Of a DNA stretch of 64,000 nucleotides, positions 20,859-45,339 are shown piece after piece; the stretch's first letter is position 1; every line of letters begins with the position of its first letter. The notes below the pieces were generated by a model. It was given only the letters and a program-made list of their open reading frames with translations. It was not told the DNA's origin and did no database searches. This stretch comes from Gammaproteobacteria bacterium (lineage in GTDB: Bacteria > Pseudomonadota > Gammaproteobacteria > Nevskiales > Nevskiaceae). The translations under genes were made by a program, and so were the position numbers. The stretch lies in the NCBI GenBank assembly GCA_026398815.1, contig JAPLSA010000025.1, positions 62,001 to 126,000 on the forward strand, read 5' to 3'.

Positions 20859-20993
20859 TTCAACGCAAAGGCGCAAAGGGAAAAGAAAGGACGCAAAGAT
20901 CAGCAAGTTCAAGGGCCGCGAGCATTGTCGATTCCCTTTCTCTATCTCTTTGCGTCCTCCTCTTTGCCTTTGACTTTGCGCCTTTGCGTTGAA
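20859..20993. repeat. Palindromic repeat element with AACGCAAAGGCGCAAAG ends
   Basis: A perfect 20-bp inverted repeat (TTCAACGCAAAGGCGCAAAG at 20859-20878 and its complement at 20974-20993) encloses a second inverted pair (GGACGCAAAGA at 20889-20899 and its complement at 20947-20957). The whole element can fold as one long hairpin with a central loop near 20900-20946. It fills the 344-base gap between two divergently oriented genes; no gene is seen in the remainder. Elements with AACGCAAAGGCGC-type ends are widespread non-coding repeats in proteobacteria as I recall. Confidence 0.75.
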
Positions 20994-31173: not shown

Positions 31174-31191
31174 ATGGGGAGCAGGAACACC

Positions 31192-31686
31192 ATGGATTTG
31201 CGCAAGATCAAGACGCTGATCGATCTCGTCGAGGAATCGGGCATCGCCGAGCTGGAGGTCAAGGAAGGCGAGGAATCGGTGCGCATCTCGCGTTACCCGA
31301 CCGGCGCGATGCAGGCGCCGCCGCAGTACTACGCTGCCGCCCCGCAGCCGCTGGCCGCGCCGGCCAGCGCACCGGCGCCGGCCCCGGCCGCAGCCCCGGC
31401 GGCTGAAGCGCCAGCGGCGGCCCCGGCTGCTGCGCCGAAGGCTGCCGAGAACCGCCATGTGGTCAAGGCGCCGATGGTCGGCACCTTCTACCGCACGCCG
31501 TCGCCGGGTGCGAAGGCGTTCGTCGAGGTGGGCCAGACGGTCAAGGCCGGCCAGACGCTGTGCATCATCGAAGCGATGAAGATGCTCAACCAGATCGAGT
31601 CGGACAAGTCCGGCGTGGTCGTCGAGATCCTGGTCGACAACGAGAAGCCGGTCGAATTCGACCAGCCGATGTTCATCATCGAGTAA
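31192..31686 (+). CDS. accB: Biotin carboxyl carrier protein of acetyl-CoA carboxylase
   Basis: 164 residues. AccB carries the biotin that shuttles CO2 between biotin carboxylase and carboxyltransferase in fatty acid synthesis. The N-terminal helix region ([20 protein letters not shown]) is followed by an Ala/Pro linker (about 46-85) and the biotinyl domain with the modified Lys130 in [15 protein letters not shown] with an upstream AGGA (spacing 5) is chosen over an ATG 18 bases further upstream. The accC gene follows after 92 bases. Confidence 0.96.
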
Positions 31687-31778: not shown

Positions 31779-33146
31779 ATGTTCAACAAAATCCTGATCG
31801 CCAACCGAGGCGAAATCGCGCTGCGCATCCTGCGCGCCTGCCGAGAACTCGGCATCAAGACGGTGGCCGTGCACTCCACCGCCGACCGTGACCTGAAGCA
31901 TGTCCGCCTGGCCGACGAAACCGTCTGCATCGGCGGCGCTGCGGCCACCGGCAGCTACCTGAACATGGCGGCGATCATTTCCGCCGCCGAAGTGACCCAG
32001 GCCGATGCCATCCACCCGGGCTACGGCTTCCTGAGCGAGAACGCCGACTTCGCGGAATCGGTCGAGAAGAGCGGCTTCGTGTTCATCGGCCCGCGCTCGG
32101 AAACCATTCGCCTGATGGGCGGCAAGACCACCGCCAAGGCCGAGATGATCGCCGCCGGCGTGCCCTGCGTGCCCGGCTCCGACGGCATCCTGCCGGACGA
32201 CGAAGCCGAGTGCCTGGCGATCGCCGAGAAGGTCGGCTATCCGGTGCTGATCAAGGCCGCCTTCGGTGGCGGCGGACGCGGCATGCACGTCGTGCGCAAG
32301 CCCGCCGACCTGATCGGCTCGATCAAGATCGCCCGCCAGGAAGCGCTGCAGGCGTTCAAGGACGGCTCGGTGTTCCTCGAGAAGTATCTCGAAGTGCCGC
32401 GCCACATCGAGATCCAGGTGCTGGCCGACGAACACGGCAACGCCGTGTTCCTCGGCGAACGCGACTGCTCGATGCAGCGCCGCAACCAGAAAGTCATCGA
32501 GGAAGCGACCGCGCCCGGCATCACGCCGGCGCAGCGCGCGGAGATCGGCAAGCTGTGCACCGATGCCTGCAAGCGCATCGGCTACCGCGGCGCCGGCACG
32601 ATGGAATTCCTCTACGAGAACGGCCGCTTCTACTTCATCTAGATGTCCACCCGCATCCAGGTGGAGCATCCGGTGACCGAGATGATCACCGGCGTCGACC
32701 TGATCGCGCAGCAGATCCGCGTGGCGGCCGGCGAACCGCTGCCGTTCAAGCAGGAAGACATCCGCATCACCGGCCATGCGATCGAGTGCCGCATCAACGC
32801 CGAAGACCCGTTCAAGTTCACGCCGAGCCCGGGCGAGGTCAAGAAGTGGCACACGCCGGGCGGCCCCGGCGTGCGCATGGACAGCCACGTCTACGCCGGC
32901 TACCGCGTGCCGCCGAACTACGACTCGATGATCGGCAAGCTGATCGTCCACGGCCCGACGCGGGAAAGCGCGATTGCCCGCATGCGCACCGCGCTCGACG
33001 AGATGATCGTCGAAGGCATCGTCACCAACATCCCGCTGCAGCAGATGATCCTCAACGATCCGGTGTTCTGTGCCGGCACGCATCACATCCACTACCTGGC
33101 GTCGATGCTCGACAAGGCAGCGGGCGGCACCGGCGACGCCCATTAG
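31779..33146 (+). pseudogene. accC: Biotin carboxylase, interrupted by an in-frame amber codon at position 288
   Basis: The reading frame would give 455 residues, the normal AccC length, and matches throughout: [20 protein letters not shown] at the N-terminus, the ATP-grasp region with GGGGRGMH, and [14 protein letters not shown]. But codon 288 (32640-32642) is TAG where the family has the Glu of [13 protein letters not shown], the residue that in E. coli AccC is metal-binding Glu288. Codon 290 is also changed, Ser for the conserved Asn. As read, translation stops after 287 residues (FYFI), and an ATG directly follows, so an independent 167-residue C-terminal fragment could be reinitiated. 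Because acetyl-CoA carboxylase is essential, a base-call or assembly error, a second accC elsewhere, or amber suppression must be considered. It is flanked downstream by a palindromic element. I call it pseudogene to record the break. Confidence 0.85.
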
Positions 33147-33415
33147 GGCTTGATGGCATCGCTTTGATCGCTGCGTTGCAAGTCAAAACCGCCGCCGGGC
33201 GAGGCGCGGACCGCAGGGCATCGCTACCTATGGTCAAGTTTCGCGACGAAGTCCCGGCGGCGTTTTTGGCTGCAACCCTTCGGGGCGGGATCATTGATGC
33301 CCATTGCTGCTTCTCTCGTCGCGCCAATGGGTCAACCATTGGCCGCTCCTCGCTCATTACACTGGGCATCAATGACCTCCGCCGCAGCGATCTAAGCGAT
33401 GCCATCAAGCCCTAA
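33143..33415. mobile_element. Palindromic MITE-like element between accC and prmA
   Basis: The outer arms are 33-bp inverted repeats with one mismatch (33143-33175 and 33383-33415), ending TTAGGGCTTGATGGCATCG at the left. Inside are two further hairpins: 33176-33199 with 33253-33275 (TTGCAAGTCAAAACCGCCGC arms), and 33291-33306 with 33360-33375 (TCATTGATGCCCATTG arms). The whole can fold as a closed stem with two inner hairpins. It has no gene inside. The TAG stop of accC lies in the left arm and the prmA ATG lies in the right arm, so both genes use element bases. Classification as a MITE or large REP-like element is inference from structure. Confidence 0.7.
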
Positions 33416-34289
33416 CACTTGGGTCGAGCTGGCCGTTGCCAGCCACCACCCGGAGTTCGCCGAGGAAATCCTGCTGGCCTGCGGTGCGCTGTCGGTGACC
33501 ATGACCGACGCCGCCGACGTGCCGGTGCTCGAGCCGCTGCCGGGTGAAACGCCGCTGTGGCCGGCCACCATCACACGCGGCCTGTTCAACGCCGGCACCG
33601 ATCTGGACACCGTGCGCGCAGCCCTTGCCGAGCAGCTGCCGGACGGCGACGCGGCCGGCACCGAGCTGCTGACGGTCGAGGATCGCGACTGGGTGCGTGC
33701 CTGGCTCGATCACGCCGAAGCGATGCAGTTCGGCGAGCGCCTTTGGATCTGCCCGACCGGCTGCGAAGTGACCGCGCAGGACGCGGTGATCGTCCATCTC
33801 GATCCGGGTCTGGCCTTCGGCACCGGCACCCATCCGAGCACCTCGATGTGTCTCGACTGGCTGTCGCTGAACGCGATCGACGGCGCGGCCGTGCTCGACT
33901 ACGGCTGTGGCTCCGGCGTGCTGGCGATCGCCGCCCTGAAGCTGGGTGCGGCCTCGGCGCTGGCGATCGACATCGATCCGCAGGCGATCACCGCGACGCT
34001 CGACAACGCCACCACCAACCAGGTGGCCGAAAGGATTCGCTGCGCCGGCATCGACCATCCGCCACTGCCGCAGTTCGACCTCGTGCTGGCCAACATCCTG
34101 GCCCGGCCGCTGATCGAGCTGGCGCCGAAGCTGGCGGCCGCGACCCGCACCGGCGGCCATGTCGTGCTGGCCGGGCTGCTCGAACGGCAGGCCGAGGAAG
34201 TGCGCGCCGCGTACGCGCCGTGGTTCGATTTCGAAGCCGATGGCGAACGCGACGGCTGGAACCGCATCAGCGGCGTCAAACGCGGCTGA
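33399..34289 (+). CDS. prmA: Ribosomal protein L11 methyltransferase
   Basis: A 296-residue SAM-dependent methyltransferase that trimethylates ribosomal protein L11. It has the N-terminal L11-recognition domain (WVELAVASHHPEFAEEILL), the SAM motif VLDYGCGSGVLAIAALKLG, AIDIDPQA, and NILARPLIELAPKLA with the family's NILA. The ATG start is inside the right arm of the palindromic element, so the first residues (MPSSP) come from it. The usual N-terminal strand starts at TWVEL just after. In many gammaproteobacteria it is followed by DUF3426, dusB and fis; here only fis follows. Confidence 0.94.
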   Translation: MPSSPNTWVELAVASHHPEFAEEILLACGALSVTMTDAADVPVLEPLPGETPLWPATITRGLFNAGTDLDTVRAALAEQLPDGDAAGTELLTVEDRDWVRAWLDHAEAMQFGERLWICPTGCEVTAQDAVIVHLDPGLAFGTGTHPSTSMCLDWLSLNAIDGAAVLDYGCGSGVLAIAALKLGAASALAIDIDPQAITATLDNATTNQVAERIRCAGIDHPPLPQFDLVLANILARPLIELAPKLAAATRTGGHVVLAGLLERQAEEVRAAYAPWFDFEADGERDGWNRISGVKRG

Positions 34290-39280: not shown

Positions 39281-39897
39281 GACAGCATCGCCTGCAGCAG
39301 GCGGCGCGCGCGGTGCAGCTGCGCCTTGGAGGTGCCGACGGCAATGCCGGTCAGCTCGCTGATCTCGTCGTGCTGGTAGCCCTCGACGTCGTACAGCATC
39401 AGCACGGTGCGGGCGCCTTTCGGCAGCTTGGCCAGCGCCCGCTCCAGATCGATGCGGCTGCCGAGATCTTCCTGGCGGATCGGCTCGATCGGGTCCAGGC
39501 CGGCGCTGCCGGATTCGCCGTCGGCGCCGGGCTGGAACTCATCCTCGAAGGTCACCCAGCGGCGCAGCAGGCGATGCTCGCCGAGCACGACGTTGACGGT
39601 CAGCCGGTGCATCCAGGTGCTGAAGCGGCTTTCGCCCCGGAAGCTGCCGAGCTTTTCCCAGGCGCGGACGAAGGCGTCCTGGGTAGCCTGCTCGGCACGG
39701 GCGACATCGCCGTGGCAGAGGCGCAGGCACAGGCCGTGGATGCGATCGACGTTGGCGCGGTACAGCCGCTCGAACGCCCGGGCGTCACCGGCCGCTGCCA
39801 GACGCGCCAGCTGATGATCCTCGGGCTCGGCGTCCGGGCCTGCGGCTGCGGCAGGCAGGGCAGCGTCCATCGTCATGGTCAGGGTCGCGGTCGTCAT
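39277..39897 (-). CDS. ECF-type RNA polymerase sigma factor
   Basis: 206 residues with sigma-70 region 2 (AFVRAWEKLGSFRGESRFSTWMHRLTVN, spanning about 92-119) and region 4 (HDEISELTGIAVGTSKAQLHRARRLLQ at the C-terminus), lacking regions 1 and 3, the ECF layout. The N-terminal extension (about 25 residues) is longer than usual. It is encoded before, and overlaps, the probable anti-sigma gene. Signal and targets are unknown. Confidence 0.9.
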   Translation of the reverse strand: MTTATLTMTMDAALPAAAAGPDAEPEDHQLARLAAAGDARAFERLYRANVDRIHGLCLRLCHGDVARAEQATQDAFVRAWEKLGSFRGESRFSTWMHRLTVNVVLGEHRLLRRWVTFEDEFQPGADGESGSAGLDPIEPIRQEDLGSRIDLERALAKLPKGARTVLMLYDVEGYQHDEISELTGIAVGTSKAQLHRARRLLQAMLS

Positions 39898-40031
39898 TGC
39901 TGCTCGGATGCGCCAGCGGCAGCGAGGGTTTGAAGCCAGGCCCGCCGTCGCGCCGGAAGCGGCCTGATAATACGACCGTTCACGGCGCTATCCGGCCCGT
40001 CCATCGCATCCACTTTCCAGGCCTCCTGCCC

Positions 40032-40799
40032 ATGTCCGTTGTCCACCAGCTGAAGGTTGTCGGTTCCGTACTCGCGTCCACTGCCCGCGGCTGGTGCGGC
40101 AGCCTGTCGTTCCGGCCGACCACCCGGCAGCCTGAGCAACTGCTGCGGCTGTACGAGTTCGAGGCCAGCCCGTTCTGCCGGCTGGTCCGCGAGGCGCTCA
40201 GCGAAATGGATCTGGACGTGCTGATCCTGCCCTGCCCGGCCGGCGGCACCCGGTTCCGGCCGGAAGCGGTGCAGCTCGGCGGCAAGTCCCTGTTCCCGTT
40301 CCTGGTCGACCCCAACACCGGCCGCTCGCTGCACGAATCGGCCGACATCATCGACTACCTGGCCGAAACCTATGGCGGCCAGCTGCGCGCGCCGCGCGGC
40401 CTGCGGCGCACGGCGTCGATCGCGGCATCGGTCACCACCACGCTGGCGCGTGCGGCACGCGGCCTGAAGGCAGCGCCTTCGAAAGCGCCGGCGCAGCCGC
40501 TGGCGCTGTACAGCTTCGAAGCGAGCCCGTACTCGCGGCTGGTGCGCGAGCGCCTCTGCGAACTGGAATTGCCCTACGTACTGCACAACACCGCCAAGGC
40601 GCGCTGGGAGGATGTCGGCCCGCCGCAGATTCGCTCGACGTTCTTCCCCGCGCTGCCGGTGGAAGGCCGCAACCGCGTGGCGCTGCTGGCCCGCGCCGGC
40701 CGCGTGCAGGTGCCTTACCTGGTCGATCCGAACACCGGCACCGAGATGTTCGAATCCGAAGCGATCCTGGCCTACCTCGATCGCAGCTACGCGGCGTGA
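40032..40799 (+). CDS. Tandem GST N-terminal (thioredoxin-fold) domain protein
   Basis: 255 residues with two copies of the glutathione S-transferase N-terminal fold and no GST C-terminal helical domain. Copy one (about 37-120) has YEFEASPFCRLVREALSEM and FLVDPNTGRSLHESADIIDYL; copy two (about 155-255) has YSFEASPYSRLVRERLCEL and YLVDPNTGTEMFESEAILAYL. The first keeps a Cys at the position of the active-site (SPFC); in the second it is Ser (SPYS). Function unknown; it may bind glutathione or act as a redox protein. It shares a 4-base overlap (GTGA) with the downstream transporter gene. Confidence 0.75.
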   Translation: MSVVHQLKVVGSVLASTARGWCGSLSFRPTTRQPEQLLRLYEFEASPFCRLVREALSEMDLDVLILPCPAGGTRFRPEAVQLGGKSLFPFLVDPNTGRSLHESADIIDYLAETYGGQLRAPRGLRRTASIAASVTTTLARAARGLKAAPSKAPAQPLALYSFEASPYSRLVRERLCELELPYVLHNTAKARWEDVGPPQIRSTFFPALPVEGRNRVALLARAGRVQVPYLVDPNTGTEMFESEAILAYLDRSYAA

Positions 40800-41443: not shown

Positions 41444-41471
41444 ATCCGGCGCTGCCGCCGGGCGCTGCAGT

Positions 41472-42443
41472 TCAGTGCGCCCGTTTCCGGAACTGCCGTG
41501 GCGTGGCCGCGAAGGTCTTCCTCATCAGGCGACGCAGCGCCGTGGCATCCCGGTAACCCACCTGCTCGGCGATCCGCTCCACCGGCAGCTGGCTGGTTTC
41601 CAGCAACAGGCGCGCGCGCTTCAGGCGAACGAACTGGACCAGTGCGGAAGTGCTGCGGCCGGTTGCCGCCTGGACCCGGCGACTCAGCGTGCGCTCCGAC
41701 ATGCACAGCGTTGCCGCCAGCTCGGCGATGCTCGGCACCTCGGGAAGCGCCGCCTCGATCCTGGCGCTCAGCTCGGCGACCAGCGCATCGCCATTGGCCA
41801 TCATGGCCGGCACGATGAATGGCGCCTGCGCTTCGCGCCCATCGATCAGCAGCGCCCGGGCCACTGCTTCCGCCAGTTCGCCGCCGCAGCGCGAACGCAG
41901 CAACTGCAGCATCAGGTCGGTGTGCGCGAACGCGGCACCGGCCGTCCAGATCGGCCCGTCGCGGCTCACCATCCGGTTGGCATCGACCGCGCAGGCGGGC
42001 TCGCGCGCTTTCAGGTGCGGTGCCAGCCACCAGGTGGTTGTCGCCTTCCGTTGGTTCAGCAGCGCTGCAGCCTGCAGCAGGAACACGGCCGAACAGGACG
42101 CAGCGACGATGCCGCCGTGGTCGACATGGGCCTGCAGCGCCCGCGCGGCTTGCGCGGCGTCGGGCTCGAGCAGGCGTGCGTCGACCGCAGCCGGGGTGGT
42201 GGTCGCCAGTCCGGGAACGACCCACAGCGAGTCATCCGACCTGGCCGATGCTTTCAAGGCCTGCGCTTCGATCGAGAAGCCATTGCTGAGACGCACCTGG
42301 CCGCCGCCAGGGGTCACTACCCGCCAGCGGGGGGCTGCCTGCTTCAGCCTCGGCGCGATCGTCGCCGCTGCCGACAACAGGTCGAGCGAGGCCGCGACGG
42401 CCGTGGCGAAAGCGCCCTGCATGACCAGGATCGTGAAATCCAT
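41472..42443 (-). CDS. GlxA-type AraC family regulator with DJ-1/PfpI domain
   Basis: 323 residues. The N-terminal half (about 1-190) is a DJ-1/PfpI-like fold (FTILVMQGAFATAVAASLDLL; the nucleophile-type Cys is in AASCSAVFLL), and the C-terminal half (about 220-323) is an AraC helix-turn-helix (IAELAATLCMSERTLSRRVQ and VERIAEQVGYRDATALRRLM). The group includes regulators of choline/carnitine catabolism and glyoxalase-like genes. It is divergent from the cupin-led cluster (92 bases apart), so it may regulate that cluster. Confidence 0.87.
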   Translation of the reverse strand: MDFTILVMQGAFATAVAASLDLLSAAATIAPRLKQAAPRWRVVTPGGGQVRLSNGFSIEAQALKASARSDDSLWVVPGLATTTPAAVDARLLEPDAAQAARALQAHVDHGGIVAASCSAVFLLQAAALLNQRKATTTWWLAPHLKAREPACAVDANRMVSRDGPIWTAGAAFAHTDLMLQLLRSRCGGELAEAVARALLIDGREAQAPFIVPAMMANGDALVAELSARIEAALPEVPSIAELAATLCMSERTLSRRVQAATGRSTSALVQFVRLKRARLLLETSQLPVERIAEQVGYRDATALRRLMRKTFAATPRQFRKRAH

Positions 42444-42535
42444 CGTCTGTCTGAAAAAGCCTGAATAAAGTCAAATCTGACAATGCCATTCTTGGTATCG
42501 GAAGCGCGTAATGCAAGCCGTCACCGCACTTCGGA

Positions 42536-43039
42536 ATGCCCATGCCCCGCCTCGCCGTCGCGATCCCTGCCGCTGCAGCGCCGCTGCGCCTGCAGCCTTC
42601 CCGCTATCCCGAGCCCTTTGCTTCGCGGATGACCGGCCGGGACAAAAGGCCGCTGGGGACGCTGTTCGGCCTGAGCCATTTCGGCGTCAATCTCTGCCAC
42701 CTGCATCCGGGCGCGGTGTCGGCGTTGCGGCACTGCCACAGCCGCCAGGACGAATTCGTCTACGTGCTCGAAGGCACGCCGACCCTGATCACCGATGCCG
42801 GCGCAACCATCCTTGCGCCCGGCATGTGCGCCGGATTCAAGGCCGGCAGCGGCGATGCGCATTGCCTGCAGAACCGGACGTCGACCGGCGTGCTGTATCT
42901 CGAGATCGGCGACCGCACGCCTGGCGATGAAGCCCAATACCCGGACGACGACCTGCGGGCGCTGCTGGTCGACGGGCGCTGGGCGTTCTTTCACAAGGAC
43001 GGACAACCCTATCCGGACGTTGGCGGGGCCGGCGCATGA
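42536..43039 (+). CDS. Cupin-domain protein
   Basis: A 167-residue single-domain cupin. Metal-ligand type motifs: HPGAVSALRHCHSRQDEFVYVLEG (His residues and Glu of motif 1) and PGMCAGFKAGSGDAHCLQN (motif 2). The family binds a metal and may be an isomerase, dioxygenase or sugar-modifying protein. It overlaps the dienelactone hydrolase gene by four bases, so it begins a five-gene unit. Confidence 0.82.
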   Translation: MPMPRLAVAIPAAAAPLRLQPSRYPEPFASRMTGRDKRPLGTLFGLSHFGVNLCHLHPGAVSALRHCHSRQDEFVYVLEGTPTLITDAGATILAPGMCAGFKAGSGDAHCLQNRTSTGVLYLEIGDRTPGDEAQYPDDDLRALLVDGRWAFFHKDGQPYPDVGGAGA

Positions 43040-43854
43040 GCGCGCAATGCCGGCACGCGGATGATCCTCTCGACGATTTCACGGCACGCCGGATCACCCT
43101 GAACGGGGCGACCAAGGTGGTCCACATTGCCGGCAGCGGGCCGGCGGTGATCGTGCTGGCCGAGATGCCCGGGATCAGCCCGCAGCTTGCGCGCTTCAGC
43201 CGCTGGGTGAGAGATGCCGGGTTCTCCGTCTACATGCCGTCCCTGTTCGGTCGCGACGGTGCCGTCGCCGACGCCGAGGAAGGCAGGCGCGCCTTCCAGC
43301 GCGCCTGCATCAGCGCCGAGTTCCGCGCCTTCGCTCGCGATCAATCGAGTCCGGTCACGCAGTGGCTGCGCGCGCTGGCGCGGCTGGCCCACGGCGAAGC
43401 AGGCGGCCCGGGCGTCGGCGCGATCGGCATGTGCTTCACGGAGAATTTCGCGCTGACGATGATGCTGGAGCCGTCGATGCTGGCGGCGGTGCTTTCGCAG
43501 CCGACCTTGCCGCTGAACGATCCCGCCGGCCTGGAAATCGCGCCCGACGAACTGGCGGCCGTCGCCAGCCGCCTGGAGCGCGAGCATCTGAGCGTGCTCG
43601 CCTATCGCTTCGCAGGCGATCGCTACTGCCGCGCAGAACGTTTCGCCGCCTACGCCGAATCGCTGGGCGAGCGATTCATTGCCCGCGTCCTGCCGGACAG
43701 CACCGCGAATCCCGATGCGCCCCCGTTCTTCACCGAGGTAGTGGCCTGTCCGCACAGCGTGGTGACCGCGCACCTGATCGACGAAGCCGGCCAACCCACC
43801 CTCGCGGCACGCGACGAAATCCTGGCCTTCTTTCGCCAGCGGCTCGGCGCATGA
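43036..43854 (+). CDS. Dienelactone hydrolase family protein
   Basis: 272 residues, alpha/beta hydrolase. VIVLAEMPGISPQLARFSRW and YMPSLFGRDG are typical of the family. The nucleophile-type Cys lies in IGMCFTENFALTMML, with the His in ACPHSVVTAHL near the C-terminus. Dienelactone hydrolases open lactones in aromatic degradation, but this family is broad. It overlaps the next gene by four bases (ATGA). Confidence 0.85.
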   Translation: MSAQCRHADDPLDDFTARRITLNGATKVVHIAGSGPAVIVLAEMPGISPQLARFSRWVRDAGFSVYMPSLFGRDGAVADAEEGRRAFQRACISAEFRAFARDQSSPVTQWLRALARLAHGEAGGPGVGAIGMCFTENFALTMMLEPSMLAAVLSQPTLPLNDPAGLEIAPDELAAVASRLEREHLSVLAYRFAGDRYCRAERFAAYAESLGERFIARVLPDSTANPDAPPFFTEVVACPHSVVTAHLIDEAGQPTLAARDEILAFFRQRLGA

Positions 43855-44423
43855 ACTGCGCATCTGCAGTTCCGGCAGTCTCGCCGGGCATCGAGCTGTG
43901 GTTCGATTTCGCCAGCAGCGACAGCCACCCGAGCATCATGAGGATCGAAGCCGAAGCGACGAAACATCAGTTGCCGGTGATCTGGAGGCCCTTCCTGCTC
44001 GGGCCGATCTTGCAGTGCCGCGAGCTGGCACTGCCGCGGCGACCACCCAGCCGCTTCCCGCGATCGGCGCTGCTGGCCTTGCGGGTCGCGATGCTGGGGG
44101 CGGAGCAACGCTGGATCGGCGCCTACTGTCGCCGGATAGCCAGCCTGAACTTCGCGCTGGCCTGCGATCTGGAGGATCCGGACTTGATCGAACAGCTGCT
44201 GTCGGAACTCTGGCTGCCTGCGCAGCAGATCATCGCCGAGGCTCAGAGCGAGACCAACCGGCAGGCGCTGCGCGCGCAGACGGAAACGGCCCGCGCGCTG
44301 GGCCTGTGCGGCGCGCCGAGCTTCATCGTCGACGGCGAGCTGTTCCGGGGCAACGACCGTCTGGACGACGCGCTGGCCTACGGCGTGGAACGTCGCTTCG
44401 CGAGCCCTCGCCATGTCTGCTGA
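43851..44423 (+). CDS. 2-hydroxychromene-2-carboxylate isomerase-like (DsbA-fold) protein, internally shortened
   Basis: 190 residues. The N-terminal FDFASSDSHPS and the C-terminal GLCGAPSFIVDGELFRGNDRLDDAL match the HCCA isomerase/kappa-GST group, which uses glutathione in aromatic breakdown. The usual motif after WRPFLLGPI runs another 25-30 residues (typically SPFNLYPAKGRYMWRDLER) before a xFPRNGLLAARI-type stretch; here the protein goes from GPILQC directly to RRPPSRFPRSALLALRVA, so that segment appears deleted in frame. The start overlaps the previous stop (ATGA) and its end overlaps the next gene by 11 bases. It may still fold, but activity is doubtful. Confidence 0.72.
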   Translation: MNCASAVPAVSPGIELWFDFASSDSHPSIMRIEAEATKHQLPVIWRPFLLGPILQCRELALPRRPPSRFPRSALLALRVAMLGAEQRWIGAYCRRIASLNFALACDLEDPDLIEQLLSELWLPAQQIIAEAQSETNRQALRAQTETARALGLCGAPSFIVDGELFRGNDRLDDALAYGVERRFASPRHVC

Positions 44424-44967
44424 CGACATCGCAATCGCAACGGCCGCAGATGCAGACACCATTGCCCAGTTGGTCAATGCGGCGTACAGGCCAGCGCCGG
44501 GCGGCGCTGGGTGGACGCATGAAAGTGCGCTGGTCAGCGGCCCCCGCATCACGGCTGCGCAGGTCCTGAGCGCGCTGTCGCAGGTCGGTCATCTCATCCT
44601 GGTTGCCAGAACGACGACCGGCATCGCGGCCTGCGTGGAGATCCGGAACCACGGCGCATGCTGCCTGCTCGGCATGCTGGCAGTCACGCCCGCCGGCCAG
44701 TGCACGGGCCTCGGCAAACGGATGCTGGAGCAGGCGGAACGCCATGCCGCAGATGTCTGGCACTGCTCGACGGTCCGCATCTCGGTGCTGTCCCAGCGCC
44801 GGGAACTGCTGTCGTTCTATCGTCGGCGCGGCTATCTGCCGACCGGCCTGGTGAGCCCGTACCCGGTTGCGGACGGCGTTGGCGAGCCGTTGCTCGACGG
44901 ACTGACGATCGACACGCTGGAAAAAACACTTGCGCGCAATCGCGCGGCACCCGAGGAGCAGCCATGA
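44413..44967 (+). CDS. GNAT-family acetyltransferase
   Basis: 184 residues. The GNAT fold is shown by IAACVEIR, GMLAVTPAGQCTGLGKRMLEQAERHA (the acetyl-CoA loop, Q/RxxGxG-type) and VLSQRRELLSFYRRRGYLPTG. The acetyl-CoA-binding loop reads QCTGLGK, a common variant. Substrate unknown. It lies in the cluster and overlaps both neighbours. Confidence 0.83.
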   Translation: MSADDIAIATAADADTIAQLVNAAYRPAPGGAGWTHESALVSGPRITAAQVLSALSQVGHLILVARTTTGIAACVEIRNHGACCLLGMLAVTPAGQCTGLGKRMLEQAERHAADVWHCSTVRISVLSQRRELLSFYRRRGYLPTGLVSPYPVADGVGEPLLDGLTIDTLEKTLARNRAAPEEQP

Positions 44968-45245
44968 GCTTCGTGTTGATCATTCATCGCGTTCACGACT
45001 ACGCAGCCTGGAAAGCGATCTTCGACGCTGCGGCCGGCGCCCGGAAAGCGGCGGGCGAGCGTCGCTACTCGTTGCTTTGCGACGTCAGAGAGCCCCGGCG
45101 CGTCGTGCATTTCTCGCAGTGGATTTCCATCGATGACGCGCGCGCGTTCTTCGAGTCGGCGGAACTGGTGGCGCTCCGCCACAGGGCCGGAGTCGAGTCG
45201 CCCGAGTTCCATTACCTGCATGAGCTTGAAGTCGGCACTCTCTGA
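44964..45245 (+). CDS. Antibiotic-biosynthesis-monooxygenase-like (dimeric alpha/beta barrel) protein
   Basis: 93 residues with a ferredoxin-like alpha/beta repeat: FVLIIHRVHDYAAWKAIFDAA, RYSLLCDVREPRRVVHFSQW and ARAFFESAELVALRHRAG. The size and pattern fit small ABM-type or EthD-like dimeric barrel proteins. The ATG overlaps the GNAT stop by four bases (ATGA). Role unknown; last gene of the cluster. Confidence 0.65.
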   Translation: MSFVLIIHRVHDYAAWKAIFDAAAGARKAAGERRYSLLCDVREPRRVVHFSQWISIDDARAFFESAELVALRHRAGVESPEFHYLHELEVGTL

Positions 45246-45339
45246 GCGCTGGACTGGCTTGGGTCGACACATCACGCCGGCAGGCCTTCGCAGGGGATGG
45301 CCACTTCCACCTGTTCCGGAAGCCCGACAGCAGCGCCGT

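Follow-up and report, generated by a model that had tools for sequence, protein, structure and literature searches.

Biotin carboxylase and its metal-binding motif

The accC gene, which encodes the biotin carboxylase subunit of acetyl-CoA carboxylase, is essential in the bacteria studied. Within the ATP-grasp motif of this enzyme, Glu288 is a residue that we take to be a metal ligand, in agreement with what is described for its exchange by lysine. In the part of a report on the E. coli enzyme that deals with the neighbouring residue, the exchange N290A is stated to lower biotin carboxylase activity 250-fold (PMC8667948), and a second report, in its lines on structure 1dv2, states that E288K stabilises an ATP complex lacking both of the Mg ions found in the active enzyme (PMC4922591).

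Here, we analysed an accC gene in which an in-frame amber codon takes the place of Glu288 and serine that of Asn290. If this were true of the living organism, a metal-binding residue of an essential enzyme would have been lost to a stop, which would imply recoding, a split enzyme or the replacement of a textbook subunit. In the literature, as judged from titles and the beginnings of abstracts, no case of such an accC lesion was found.

The interrupted accC locus

The window, that is, the whole stretch of 64,000 nucleotides that was analysed, belongs to a draft genome (G000) of 4,303,171 bases in 32 contigs, estimated to be 95.59% complete, and the contig bearing accC measures 141,671 bp. The features of the locus are the following:

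31174..31686, + strand: accB (biotin carboxyl carrier protein), intact, directly upstream of accC (TIGR00531, 191.2 bits, cut-off 115.2)
31779..33146, + strand: accC (acetyl-CoA carboxylase, biotin carboxylase subunit), a single frame broken by one TAG
31779..32642, + strand: upstream open frame of 287 aa, if the TAG is real
32640..32642, + strand: TAG at codon 288, Glu in relatives
32643..32645, + strand: ATG directly after the TAG
32643..33146, + strand: downstream open frame of 167 aa, beginning at the TAG-adjacent ATG
32646..32648, + strand: TCC (Ser) at codon 290, Asn in relatives, with two of the three bases different
33399..34289, + strand: prmA (ribosomal protein L11 methyltransferase), intact, directly downstream of accC (PF06325, 268.5 bits, cut-off 22)

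The changed bases of accC were 32640, 32646 and 32647, all within 8 bp. Read through the stop, the gene reached 726.9 bits against the accC family model TIGR00514 (cut-off 626.5), with the one TAG inside the match, and the two fragments scored singly gave 462.7 and 244.9 bits, both below the cut-off. The gene adjoins accB, as a member of the AccC family does; its frame is interrupted, and the Glu288 and Asn290 of the ATP-grasp motif are replaced by the stop and by Ser. The initial annotation, which had reported the TAG at codon 288 together with Ser290, was confirmed in this respect, given that the frame 31779-33146 is otherwise open and that the genome-wide copy carries the same letters, the 18-base pattern of the patch having a single exact match in G000 (C19:94634-94651). 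The length of 455 residues that it assigned to the protein holds only if the TAG is counted as one position.

Rarity of the lesion among relatives

The accC family model gave a match over the cut-off in 81 of the 85 genomes of the order, amounting to 83 rows, and an internal stop was found in one of these rows, that of G000. A motif search with the pattern F-[ILVM]-xxx-T-[RK]-[IVL]-QVEHP in 117 fetched loci recovered 106 sites in 106 loci, with the 11 loci lacking a match left uncounted, and 104 of the sites, which take in two G000 paralogues and some genomes present twice, read Glu-Met-Asn; the two exceptions were both copies of the window locus. Similarly, a degenerate pattern with TRR (TAA, TAG, TGA or TGG) at codon 288, which fixes some flanking codons and from which stops in other contexts would escape, was matched by G000 alone among the 85 genomes.

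The window gene was also aligned with those of 28 relatives (29 genes in total; 60 relatives were examined, 29 of them yielded loci, and the partial L030 was dropped). At the 612 columns identical in all 28 relatives, the window differs at three, namely 32640, 32646 and 32647, and all three differences are non-synonymous. When the other 28 sequences were left out one at a time, each had between 0 and 7 private changes of this kind, of which at most two fell within any 8 bp, and we estimate the chance of three independent changes falling so close together at about 1 in 10,000 (3*(7/1344)^2). Judged from these alignments, the lesion exceeds ordinary divergence. Clustering was rejected as stand-alone evidence, since the window abounds elsewhere in groups of three private changes per 8 bp, with 172 overlapping triplets of this kind. 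What is anomalous in the comparison is the clustering at positions invariant in 28 of 28 relatives, not clustering as such.

The initial annotation had argued that a double change in one motif makes a simple random error less likely. This reasoning stands against independent point changes and fails against a single consensus fault or multi-base event, which fits the observation equally well.

Selection on accC and other stops in the window and genome

Relative to its eight closest relatives, the window gene carries 16 private changes, 13 of them outside the patch. Twelve of these 13 are silent, and the exception, Val310Ala, affects a residue that is Ala in the rows of 9 of the 28 relatives. 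The predominance of silent changes outside the patch shows that accC was functional and under normal, strong selection on this branch until very recently, and pseudogene decay was rejected on this basis.

A survey of stops in the window was carried out by aligning the frames of five relatives, the best of which covers about 52 kb of the 64 kb. Other stops were listed at 20990, 21029, 25869, 29060, 30658, 31171, 34882, 39965, 39968, 40133, 59120 and 60542, and by eye this dozen corresponds to frame ends, pre-start stretches or shadow frames. The most suggestive of them, 40133, was considered as a real internal stop and rejected, given that it belongs to a shadow frame over an intact glutathione-S-transferase-like gene (frame 39897-40799, which is open and carries glutathione S-transferase domains); three relatives are open at 40133, but the differences are concentrated at third codon positions of frame 39897-40799. 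In the whole of G000, none of the 51 other domain matches had an internal stop of any kind: 6 of 7 matches to PF02786 (the exception being accC), 41 of 41 to PF00005 (37 over the family cut-off and 4 below it) and 4 of 4 to PF01039 were stop-free. The lack of further stops in real genes indicates that neither decay nor recoding is general.

As to stop usage, TAG ends 3 of the 33 orthologue-supported frames of the window, accC's own end included, and TGA ends 28 of the 33, some of these frames possibly being shadow frames. The same window contains, at 41450-45330, about 3.9 kb without an alignment longer than 400 bp among the matches listed, and in G010, G014 and G002 the matches flanking this segment lie about 0.5-0.6 kb apart. 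It encodes an AraC-type regulator with a DJ-1/PfpI domain, a dienelactone-hydrolase-like protein and an ABM-domain match just below the cut-off, and probably represents an ordinary gene gain.

Amber read-through and a split enzyme

The frame following the TAG stays intact under purifying selection, as would suit a programmed or natural amber read-through that inserts an amino acid at codon 288, one of the options offered by the initial annotation. Several observations speak against it. ARAGORN detected no CUA anticodon among the 42 tRNAs of G000, although this set is incomplete, with tRNA-Trp, tRNA-His, tRNA-Ile(gat) and tRNA-Ala(tgc) also unseen; the 101 nt from the stop onwards presented no unusual RNA structure (z -0.68); and TAG already serves as terminator in the window, including at the end of accC itself. 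Moreover, the in-frame TAG is not conserved, being present in none of the relatives compared (1 of 85 genomes and 1 of 83 accC rows, both G000, and 0 of the 51 other domain matches), and read-through would still leave Ser at residue 290, where the N290A exchange is so costly (PMC8667948). Read-through is, on these data, extremely improbable, and this option of the annotation was not upheld.

The TAG directly adjoins an ATG, an arrangement that can permit re-initiation, and both fragments match the accC family, so that a biotin carboxylase split into residues 1-287 and 289-455, with termination followed by a restart at 32643, was also weighed. By eye, no Shine-Dalgarno-like stretch precedes this ATG, and no relative compared is split. 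Residue 288 would be present in neither fragment and residue 290 would be changed, leaving the catalytic set incomplete, and the E288K description (PMC4922591), in the lines dealing with that structure, is likewise of an ATP complex lacking the active enzyme's metal ions. The restart proposed in the annotation is for these reasons scarcely credible. Overall, both recoding and a functional split enzyme are very unlikely.

Paralogues and a possible recent mutation

The initial annotation had also suggested a second accC elsewhere, and the search of G000 spoke against this: one match only exceeded the TIGR00514 cut-off, and it was the interrupted gene itself. The nearest stand-alone biotin carboxylase, at C11:110653-112152, is uninterrupted; its score with the accC model is 507.4, below the cut-off of 626.5. 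Of the 17 other genomes in the genus, 14 contain a match to it at 74% identity or higher; an uninterrupted accC above the cut-off accompanies it in 13 of them, and in the remaining one (G001) only part of an accC was seen. In the comparison of this paralogue, stops fell inside six rows of other genomes; the rows of G001 and G003 are partial matches, and G004, G006, G008 and G009 are stop-free within the accC model, which indicates that their alignments overran the gene end.

The acyl-CoA carboxylase cluster on C11 (L190 8542-12512), common in the genus, consists of the stand-alone biotin carboxylase, a 165-aa frame and a carboxyltransferase. Two further proteins were named by eye from sequence features, a biotin-domain acyl-CoA carboxylase on C13 and a pyruvate-carboxylase-like protein on C27. 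From their sequences, none of the C11, C13 and C27 genes looks like a new AccC replacement. We rejected both a second accC and a newly acquired replacement, since no paralogue examined exceeds the cut-off and the best stand-alone one is common in the genus.

These carboxylases bear on another explanation, namely that accC was knocked out in the sequenced cells by a genuine multi-base mutation of very recent origin. The cells would have survived because the C11, C13 or C27 carboxylase charges AccB or because the copy with this allele is a duplicate or a minority one. Three clustered changes suit one event, the silent private changes on both sides of the patch imply a very recent date, and an uninterrupted stand-alone paralogue is at hand on C11. 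This paralogue, however, is not newly gained, its carriers in the genus almost all keep an uninterrupted accC, it lies below the accC cut-off beside its own carboxyltransferase with the 165-aa frame between them, and accC is essential in those bacteria in which it has been studied. We regard a mutation of this kind as unlikely, though it ranks second among the explanations. That the TAG is both real and fixed and AccC disabled or recoded, with AccB charged via the C11 subunit present in most of the genus or with UAG read as Glu by a tRNA encoded outside the assembled sequence, is highly doubtful.

Origin of the patch

No donor of the 18-base patch was found in G000, where the pattern occurs once and the four other matches have 3 mismatches, and gene conversion from elsewhere in the genome was rejected on this account. 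A strain chimera joined at the patch was not supported either, identity to five relatives being similar on either side. An inverted repeat at the site is made longer by the changed bases; template switching or hairpin copying was considered as their origin and rejected, given that, of the 27 possible triple changes, 17 produce a repeat of equal or greater length and 6 fold with equal or greater stability, the actual change being counted in both. A 16S rRNA search, meant to assess the type of assembly, gave no match in G000 but also missed 5 of 14 control genomes and is therefore uninformative.

The tetranucleotide CTAG is strongly depleted in the window, with 7 occurrences against about 60 expected from its parts. 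The patch holds one of these 7 and the window's only TCTAGA, which would agree with letters whose origin lies outside the evolution of this genome; this is a single observation, and six other CTAG are present in the window. A change made to the letters once sequencing was done, whether on purpose or through data handling, would go along with the striking of two catalytic residues, the two base changes spent on one Ser codon and the normal state of the rest of the gene. No positive sign of alteration was seen, and the genome copy agrees with the window, though both may share one file. Such an alteration is quite improbable.

A consensus or assembly error as the best explanation

Since the break occurs in no relative compared and no bypass was found in the genome, an assembly error is the likeliest origin of the lesion. 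These sequence data are probably to be read as an ordinary accC with an error of consensus or assembly: the lesion was seen in this assembly only, in the sole accC match over the cut-off and beside an intact accB. Among the options of the initial annotation, base error is accordingly the one with the best support, and there is a good probability that it is correct for a lesion confined to one assembly, at invariant positions of a gene otherwise normally selected. Against an error, such faults do not most commonly take the form of three substitutions within 8 bp and no indel, the contig is long, and identity to the five relatives shows no switch at the patch.

Under the error reading, the organism's accC would be an ordinary biotin carboxylase gene, and 32640, 32646 and 32647 would together make up a local consensus fault. 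The fault might have arisen, for example, at a spot of low coverage or a faulty join, or from a minority read that entered the contig, and the living population would carry the normal motif. The evidence points to a lesion that is local to one assembly, rather than to a mechanism. As things stand, a single-copy essential gene lesioned at invariant catalytic residues in one draft is of practical use as a marker of local consensus faults.

Comparison with known systems

The window gene resembles AccC (TIGR00514; E. coli-type structures such as 1bnc and 1dv2) in its full-length collinear match and in having accB upstream, and differs from it in the TAG for Glu288 and the Ser for Asn290, a state shared by 0 of the 104 other sites. 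With amber-recoded genes, such as those of pyrrolysine and suppressor systems, it has in common a frame that stays intact past an in-frame TAG; unlike them, it comes with no CUA tRNA, no other recoded gene and no conservation of the TAG, as far as these were seen. Finally, although its three substitutions without an indel set it somewhat apart from the consensus and assembly errors of draft genomes, it resembles these errors in being an isolated lesion of a single-copy essential gene in one assembly.
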